A DNA stretch of 54,396 bases from Bacteroidota bacterium. GTDB lineage: Bacteria; Bacteroidota; Ignavibacteria; OLB7. This document shows positions 47,453 to 52,793 of this stretch, piece by piece. The number at the start of each line of letters is the position of its first letter. Within the stretch, counting starts at the first letter, position 1. The stretch covers positions 1 to 54,396 of the forward strand of contig JAFDZV010000032.1 in assembly GCA_018266795.1 (NCBI GenBank), read 5' to 3'. Below the pieces are notes generated by a model. The model was given only the letters and a program-made list of their open reading frames with translations. It ran no database searches and was not told the origin of the DNA. The position numbers were made by a program, and so were the translations under genes.

Positions 47453-47481
47453 TTGGAAGTGTCGGAGATTCTATACCTTTG
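47453..47481 (+). promoter_or_regulatory. Promoter of the first dual-HTH regulator
   Basis: TTG, 18 bases, then TACCTTTG, an exact Bacteroidota -7 box. The same GGAGATTC-TAT-C-TTG block occurs before the second regulator at 50634-50649. Confidence 0.6.
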
Positions 47482-48814: not shown

Positions 48815-48869
48815 GTGAAAATCACATTCGCATGCGAGTGATTTTGATATCAGTATAGGGCGATCTTTG
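48815..48869 (+). promoter_or_regulatory. Operator-like GTGA/TCAC array and promoter of secreted gene 1
   Basis: GTGAAAATCAC, then a TCAC-N12-GTGA box reading TCACATTCGCATGCGAGTGA, then TTTTG and GATCTTTG as a weak -33/-7 pair. A closely similar box with the same downstream bases lies before secreted gene 2. Binding by the adjacent regulator is an inference. Confidence 0.55.
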
Positions 48870-50649: not shown

Positions 50650-50810
50650 TGCTCGCTTTCCCCGCTCTATCGCCAGGGCATTCCCGAAATCGGCGACGCA
50701 TTCGGGCTGTACTGCGGCAGCATGAGGCGTGCGCCATCATATCGATGCCCGGCATCAACGGTCCGCTTTGTCGTTGACCCTCGATGGAGCAGCAACAAGG
50801 AGTTCGAAAT

Positions 50811-52106
50811 ATGCCACGCAGGCGGGATGCAGTAATCACCGAGAGTTCCGAAAAGCTTCAACGTCTGGAATCCGAATATCGCGGCAAGCCTGAAGGGCAG
50901 CGTCTTGCAACCTTGCGTTTGCTCCGGGAACGCCCGGATCGTCCAATCGAGGAGATCGCCACCATGGTTGGCTTCTCAACGGCCACGGTAAAGCGCTGGT
51001 TGCGAGCGTATCGCGAAGGGGGGCTGGCGGCCGTGCTGGATCGTCGGGCCGGCGGCAAGGATACGCAGCGGTTCGATGCCGGATTGAGCACGCTGAAGCA
51101 GAAACTTCTCAATGGCGATCTTTCCAATCTCGAGGAGGCATACGCCTGGATTGCAGATTACCGCCGTTCGCCTGGAACCCGCAAGATCGCGCAGCAGGCG
51201 ATTCACCGCGGGCGTCCCTCCGGGCCGGCCGCGCCGAAATCGCCCGGGCCGGAGCCCGAAGGGGCTGCCGATGCCGAGACAATGCGCCAGCTCCTTGTGG
51301 ACCGCCTGATGGCGGCCGTGGTAAAGGATTCCGAGCGCGTTGATAGTGGTGCGTTCGTTGACTGGCTGCGGAGTATTCATAGTGCCATTGCCGGCGTGTT
51401 CGATGATGTGGATTGGGTCCACTTCATCCCCAACATCAATGTCAACCTGTGGGACCCCTCCGATTATCGGCCCACAATGGCGATCGCTACTGCGTATGGT
51501 GGAGACTCCGAGCCGCTCATGGCTCCGATGTCGAGAGATGAGTGGAACAACGACGCGTTTCACATCCAGCGCATGCTGGAACAACTGGCCGATCAGCGGT
51601 TCGAAGCGGAGCGGTACCACCCCCCCAAGGCATTCGTGTATTACTATTGCGGTACGGCATACCTTGGGACGCTGCTGCTGTGGCGCGAACTCGGCAAGCC
51701 CACCATATCGCGACAGACGCTGGAGATCCTGGACAGTCTTGCACCAACCTTCAAATTTGTCCTGATAGATCTCGTGGCGCGACATATGGCCGTCTGGCCC
51801 CACATGCACACGCCAACCGAGACGGCCAGCCACCTGGCCAGAAGTTTGCAGCTTACACCGCAGGAGACGCGCATCCTGGTTCTGCAATACGTGGGGCGTA
51901 GTTACGAGCAGATCGCCGAGATTCTGAACATTTCGCTGAACACGGTTCGTACCCATGTGAAATCGATCTATGCGAAGTCCGGCACGCACGGGCATTCGGA
52001 TTTCACGGCGCGATACCTGACTCCGCATGCGGGGATGGAGGTCGACAATGGCAGTACGCATGTCCAGGGCCGGGTACGCCGTGAGGCTCCGAAGACCCAG
52101 GAGTAG
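50811..52106 (+). CDS. Dual helix-turn-helix regulator (transposase-type HTH plus LuxR-type HTH), copy 2
   Basis: A 431-residue paralogue of the 47.6-kb regulator. N-terminal HTH IEEIATMVGFSTATVKRWLR and AYREGGLAAVL; a linker with a Pro-rich patch (GRPSGPAAPKSPGPEPEGA); a middle domain with YHPPKAFVYYYCGTAYLGT, LLWRELGKPTISRQT and DLVARHMAVWPHM; LuxR HTH LTPQETRILVLQYVGRSYEQ and NISLNTVRTHVKSIYAKSG. A 40-residue tail is absent from copy 1. ATG at MPRRRD has an AAGGAG ribosome-binding site. The paired secreted gene lies about 690 bases downstream. Confidence 0.88.
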   Translation: MPRRRDAVITESSEKLQRLESEYRGKPEGQRLATLRLLRERPDRPIEEIATMVGFSTATVKRWLRAYREGGLAAVLDRRAGGKDTQRFDAGLSTLKQKLLNGDLSNLEEAYAWIADYRRSPGTRKIAQQAIHRGRPSGPAAPKSPGPEPEGAADAETMRQLLVDRLMAAVVKDSERVDSGAFVDWLRSIHSAIAGVFDDVDWVHFIPNINVNLWDPSDYRPTMAIATAYGGDSEPLMAPMSRDEWNNDAFHIQRMLEQLADQRFEAERYHPPKAFVYYYCGTAYLGTLLLWRELGKPTISRQTLEILDSLAPTFKFVLIDLVARHMAVWPHMHTPTETASHLARSLQLTPQETRILVLQYVGRSYEQIAEILNISLNTVRTHVKSIYAKSGTHGHSDFTARYLTPHAGMEVDNGSTHVQGRVRREAPKTQE

Positions 52107-52793
52107 CTCTGCTGGAGGGCTTCCGGCCAACGGGACGCGTCTCCCGGAACGTTGGAACCAGGATGGACGTTGGTTGGTTTCCCGCACGAGCACCCATGGG
52201 TTGCGGCCCGTCCGGCTGTGCGGGGCACCGTTTGCGCATGCTGCACGTCGATATGCACATGCAGGATGCGGTCCGCGGCGTGAGCGTCTGCCGACCGTTG
52301 GATGGAGAGAGGCCGTACTTCCCGGCGCACCACATGCCCTGGGTACGGATACACCGCCTCGTGCGGACAAGCAATTGCAACACCACCGCAGCCACAGCTG
52401 TTCACCGACCGGTTAACGATCCGGTTACACCGTTTTTAGTGTCAGTGATTCGTATCACGAAGGCGAATATCACCCTAAGATGTGAGTGACTTCGGCATCG
52501 CGACGAGGCCATATTTGTACTGAACACAGGAGATGCATGAGAGAATGCCGGGCCGTCTCCGTACGCATGTTTCCGGATGTCCGATGAGAGGGGCATCAGT
52601 GGGAATGTGCCGGCGGGGTATCCTACCGGGATAAGCGGGTCCGGGAATGCGAGTTCGAATGCACATGATCAGTTGCTCTGTATGGCGGGCGTCGGCGGTA
52701 GAGCCTGTGGGGATGCAGGTGTCTTACTTTCCATGATTTGACATGGGGTCGGAACCACGCGGCTCCGATCCGCAACCTGAGGGAGGTGTCCAT
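52107..52793. other. Leader region of secreted gene 2
   Basis: No protein-coding gene is supported. It contains the operator-like array, a possible 16-codon frame at 52536 (MRECRAVSVRMFPDVR) and a hairpin (TCGGA-acc...ggc-TCCGA, about 52748-52771) just before the ribosome-binding site. Confidence 0.5.
52445..52517 (+). promoter_or_regulatory. Operator-like GTGA/TCAC array and promoter of secreted gene 2
   Basis: GTGATTCGTATCAC, then TCACCCTAAGATGTGAGTGA (14 of 20 bases identical to the box before secreted gene 1), then, aligned without gaps, a -7-like CATATTTG where copy 1 has GATCTTTG. The array lies 277 bases upstream of the start codon. Confidence 0.55.

Follow-up and report, generated by a model that had tools for sequence, protein, structure and literature searches.

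Candidate paralogue-specific operators between LuxR-type regulators and genes for exported cysteine-rich proteins in a Chlorobiota lineage

Each of the two boxes lying between a regulator gene and a secreted-protein gene in the stretch analyzed here (54,396 nucleotides, called the window below) is best read as a paralogue-specific operator, which the GerE domain of the adjacent regulator would bind as a dimer, thereby activating the neighboring secreted-protein gene. We give this reading, which is drawn from sequence comparison, a probability of about 0.77. The original prediction of a binding site for the adjacent LuxR-type regulator was supported by the one-to-one coupling of regulators and secreted-protein genes, by the presence of a box in every intervening gap, by its near-fixed distance to a -7 element, by a box class that follows the regulator clade, and by conservation of the box but not of its flanks. 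In the mechanism that we propose, the GerE (LuxR-type) domain would bind the box, and the bound regulator would activate the promoter of the adjoining secreted-protein gene together with the T9SS-tagged gene behind it. Gene duplication would have produced a set of regulator-operator-exported-protein cassettes, in which the sites would have diverged along with the regulators.

The features of the window are given in Table 1. Regulator R1 consists of an IS630-transposase-like N-terminal HTH (~28-102), a middle domain and a C-terminal GerE/LuxR HTH (337-388). The exported proteins S1 and S3 matched no known family in Pfam and NCBIfam scans, and a PDB profile search with the secreted family returned nothing significant. 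S2, likely co-transcribed with S1, is a conserved third gene whose homologues adjoin six other regulator/secreted-gene pairs; no T9SS gene was found behind S3. Also, an exact TACCTTTG is present at 47474-47481, 116 nt upstream of R1, and constitutes a candidate promoter of the regulator, without an operator box. For those regulator genes whose upstream DNA was read, the preceding 240 nt contained no similar box, and autoregulation through an operator at this place was therefore dropped.

Table 1. Genes and candidate regulatory sites of the window (position 1 is its first letter).
Feature	Position	Strand	Details
Regulator R1, 399 aa	47590..48789	+	Pfam HTH_23 2.4e-12, GerE 1.1e-10; NCBIfam IS630 partial match 6.2e-09
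Operator box 1 (candidate)	48822..48841	+	Conserved part CATTCGCATGCGAGTGATTT 48825-48844; dyad centre 48832.5
-7 element GATCTTTG (consensus TAnnTTTG), putative promoter of S1	48862..48869	+	Placed at -12..-5, with this consensus, in PMC9723704
S1, exported Cys-rich protein, 184 aa	48999..49553	+	No Pfam or NCBIfam family
S2, small exported protein, T9SS type A sorting domain, 164 aa	49670..50164	+	PF18962 6.9e-09; TIGR04183 9.5e-09
Regulator R3, 432 aa (possible upstream start 50784)	50808..52106	+	R1 architecture; ~40% identical to R1
Operator box 2 (candidate)	52470..52489	+	Conserved part CCCTAAGATGTGAGTGACTT 52473-52492; dyad centre 52480.5
-7 element CATATTTG, putative promoter of S3	52510..52517	+	
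S3, exported Cys-rich protein, 192 aa	52794..53372	+	33% identical to S1

Both 20-mers of the original prediction were found at their predicted positions on the + strand and align without gaps, and the TTTG-type -7 elements announced downstream are present, each 20 nt from its box. The boxes exceed what chance would give, but the shorthand TCAC-N12-GTGA proved too loose: it occurred 2 times in the window (0.99 expected) and 61 times in the 5.97-Mb genome, against 27 for a reversed control, and its left arm TCAC is replaced by CTAC in the nearest relative, the same-genus genome G001. The bare motif was thus dropped as too common. When TTTG at fixed spacing was added, 3 matches were obtained genome-wide, 2 of which are the window sites; the third (TCAC-N12-GTGA-N24-TTTG at C44:347911) was treated as chance because no regulator of the family adjoins it. 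Comparison with the orthologous pair in G001 gave the conserved core ATGYGRGTGAYTT, then 18 nt, then ATNTTTG. With 0-2 mismatches, this longer pattern had exactly 3 matches in five genomes (~22 Mb): two are the sites of the window, and the third lies in the promoter of the G001 orthologous pair.

The symmetry on which the binding site had been postulated holds in part and is modest. The axis lies 1 bp off the one first proposed: the best common axis, between CATTCGCA and TGCGAGTG, gave 7/8 pairs in one box and 5/8 in each of the other two of the three sites (7/8 and 5/8 in the window boxes), with the left arm altered in G001 as described above. The second GTGA/TCAC pair said to precede each box did not survive the comparison, as it occupies non-equivalent places relative to the two boxes, shares its TCAC with the box at box 1, and is absent in G001. 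Because of these unequal positions and of this absence, such pairs were treated as chance.

The cassettes were found in four genomes of one Chlorobiota (GTDB) family, that of the window (G000), G001, G003 and G004. The secreted family has 6 members in G000 and 10 in the other three genomes combined, and was not detected in G002 or in 94 further genomes of the same class (sample of 99). The 16th member was left out, its upstream DNA being cut by a contig end. All 15 readable members (6 in G000, 9 in G001, G003 and G004) immediately follow a paralogous GerE/LuxR-type regulator, and each of the 15 gaps contains a box ~20-21 nt upstream of a TAnnTTTG-like element. In 12 gaps, this element was recognized at the expected spacing with one mismatch at most. 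The conserved core of the window clade is shifted by 6 nt, but has the same end point when aligned in the register of the other clades. Box classes match exactly the pairing in the regulator tree, for example CACAAAAGTGTAGTTG at C15 and G1_C11, CTCAAAAGTGTACTTG at C70 and G1_C28, CACAAACATGTACTGT at C44 and G1_C2, and CACGATAGTGGTATAG at G4_C75 and G3_C81. The G1_C2 gap (L052) contains two box copies ~330 nt apart, with the same secreted gene downstream.

The boxes were aligned by eye first and tested afterwards. With leave-clade-out matrices, the declared box ranked best in 12/15 gaps, and combining the worst p of each clade gave ~1e-10. The boxes of the window clade were weakly recovered by matrices trained without that clade (p = 0.055, 0.016 and 0.34) and had little share in the combined p; the window boxes thus rest on their three-member clade. 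In same-genus pairs anchored on the box, identity reached 135/175 (77%) in the box and 58% at the -7 element, as compared with 75/238 (32%) in the left flank and 108/420 (26%) in the right flank, flank identity ranging over 26-35%. Distances between boxes and between GerE domains were correlated (Mantel r = 0.60, p = 0.0002), a value to which linkage could contribute. Also, the regulator residues at the positions of residues 188, 189 and 192 of NarL, which contact bases, are for the most part shared by members of a clade, and most clades differ from one another in them. This clade-wise covariation of box and regulator could in part stem from common descent of linked DNA, although conservation does not extend to the flanks.

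The GerE HTH was matched in 15/15 regulators, with 41.4 bits in R1 and 41.9 bits in R3 (Pfam cut-off 23.5), and a PDB profile search with the regulators returned essentially only GerE-type matches, the best being DNA-binding domains of the NarL/FixJ/VraR group. The 17-18 families in the Pfam list of R1 include neither an autoinducer-binding domain nor a receiver domain, and the NCBIfam matches to LuxR-LuxI-type regulators cover the GerE part. The IS630 model (NF033545) was matched solely at positions 12-73 of 299, and the catalytic DDE domain of the IS630 transposase was not matched in the regulators. The regulator of the C15 pair (L034:1-1028), cut by the contig start, runs ~130 aa past GerE and includes there a stretch resembling by eye an Xre-type HTH, and a stand-alone 146-aa ORF on the minus strand beside the C28 pair (L035:8750-9184) contains the IS630-like N-terminal domain alone.

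One class of box extends beyond the regulator gaps. AGTACACAAASATGTACT, with at most 2 mismatches, was found at 28 sites in G000 and 19 in G001 (reversed control 0), mostly at promoters of exported, often Cys-rich, proteins without known families (e.g., L118, L149, L150, L152, L161). A search for GGTACACAAASATGTACT with at most 1 mismatch in 61 genomes gave sites in G000 (24) and G001 (19) alone, the remaining 59 having none; the two G000 counts are not interchangeable, as pattern and threshold differ. Among the 46 genome-wide sites read, 13 had an exact TAnnTTTG 22-23 nt downstream (0.02 in shuffles) and 23 had one within one mismatch (0.56 in shuffles). According to a crude script, a signal-peptide-like ORF was located within 700 nt of 33/46 sites, versus 169/600 random positions. 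Many of the ORFs behind these boxes encode small proteins with 10-18 cysteines, and a Pfam scan of ten of them gave a single match at E <= 0.05 (T9SS sorting domain and DUF3244), below cut-offs. Based on the shared sequence and on co-occurrence in two genomes, we infer that the G0_C44/G1_C2 regulator clade probably also controls this genus-wide exported-protein set (GTACACAAASATGTAC sites). The CTACACAAANGTGTAGTTG box occurs exactly twice in G000 and exactly twice in G001, at the S1 and S2 positions of the orthologous locus, and every further match in these two genomes had at least 3 mismatches. A second palindromic box, CTACACAAATGTGTAG, was noticed behind the S1-position gene (L034:1997-2016, L088:6227-6245); its symmetry is strong (7/8 pairs), and it precedes the T9SS gene in G000 and an apparently decayed copy of this gene in G001.

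In Flavobacterium, TAnnTTTG spans -12 to -5 (PMC9723704). If the same placement is adopted, box centres would lie at ~-41.5 in the window clade and at ~-43.5 to -44.5 in the other clades, and the box would end at ~-34. The box would thus overlap the Bacteroidota -33 region, and the middle domain of the regulator could be a sensor, two points that would suit repression by the adjacent regulator, the bound dimer keeping RNA polymerase out until it is released by a signal. Activator-dependent promoters, however, typically combine imperfect -7 elements (here GATCTTTG, CATATTTG, TAGCTTCG) with an upstream site centred near -41.5 to -44. Moreover, it is from this position that LuxR, a GerE protein, activates, the lux box being a 20-bp inverted repeat centred at -42.5 (PMC3376562), and we consider repression unlikely. 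It is still less probable that another factor, be it a global regulator or, at its -33 element, an alternative sigma factor, binds the box while the regulator is merely linked to it. The class that recurs genome-wide, far from any such regulator, would be in line with this idea, but the box sequence varies between paralogous loci and tracks the clade of the adjacent regulator, several classes do not occur outside the locus to which they belong, and partly palindromic boxes of 16-20 bp are unlike a -33 element.

The box might also be read by the N-terminal HTH instead of GerE, since this domain is carried by most regulators and transposase HTHs of the IS630 kind bind inverted repeats. This is contradicted by the regulators G0_C44, G1_C2 and G1_C11, which have no such HTH and no trace of it upstream, and nevertheless keep clear boxes. 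We thus regard it as very unlikely, and the same three regulators make GerE the likely binder and point to this domain as the one in contact with the box. As for chance resemblance between the window boxes, the commonness of the bare TCAC-N12-GTGA would favor it, as would the mismatches between the two sites at roughly half of the inner positions. Against this, the placement of the box with respect to the regulator, the -7 element and the gene is the same in three loci, the specific form is unique to these promoters in five genomes, and the pattern is family-wide, so that coincidence appears highly improbable. Binding and activation by the GerE domain of the adjacent regulator is thus the reading that we retain.

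GerE regulators and lux-box-like operators are already known. As for LuxR and the lux box, the gene of a GerE-type regulator adjoins its target, and a candidate, partly palindromic site of 16-20 bp, whose centre would lie near -42, overlaps the promoter. However, the cassettes have a Bacteroidota-type -7 element and not a -10 element, the site sequences are unrelated, the regulators have no detected autoinducer-binding domain and present an extra N-terminal IS630-like HTH, and the targets encode exported Cys-rich proteins. Response regulators of the NarL/FixJ/VraR type have the C-terminal GerE HTH in common with the cassette regulators, in which no receiver domain was found. Most cassette regulators share with IS630-family transposases an N-terminal DNA-binding domain (NF033545 partial match), but have no matched catalytic domain and are fused to GerE. 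PorXY-SigP, in which a two-component system and an ECF sigma factor act on the secretion apparatus, likewise controls T9SS-related genes in the same broad bacterial group (PMC4800418, PMC8265659), whereas the cassette GerE regulators are without receiver domain and stand beside individual exported-protein genes. In the open-access papers covered, we found no description of the IS630-type HTH fusion, of the one-to-one coupling to exported Cys-rich/T9SS genes, or of the genus-wide operator.

Here, 15 paralogous copies from an uncultured lineage show operator code, regulator and target side by side, and changes in the recognition helix can therefore be matched to changes in DNA. Our data also provide a regulon in Chlorobiota that is open to testing and consists mostly of exported proteins, often Cys-rich and of unknown function, as well as evidence that the Bacteroidota -7 element is used in this Chlorobiota lineage. 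A bolder and rather doubtful hypothesis is that the cassettes are parallel insulated circuits, each with its own DNA code and exported protein, that the regulator receives feedback from the exported protein or from whatever this protein contacts, and that one cassette was promoted to master of the genus-specific exported Cys-rich repertoire. Further regulator paralogues of G000 lie at C2:90501, C44:121526, C44:208557 and C44:241578 without a secreted-family gene directly behind; a different signal-peptide-like ORF comes after the one at C44:121526.
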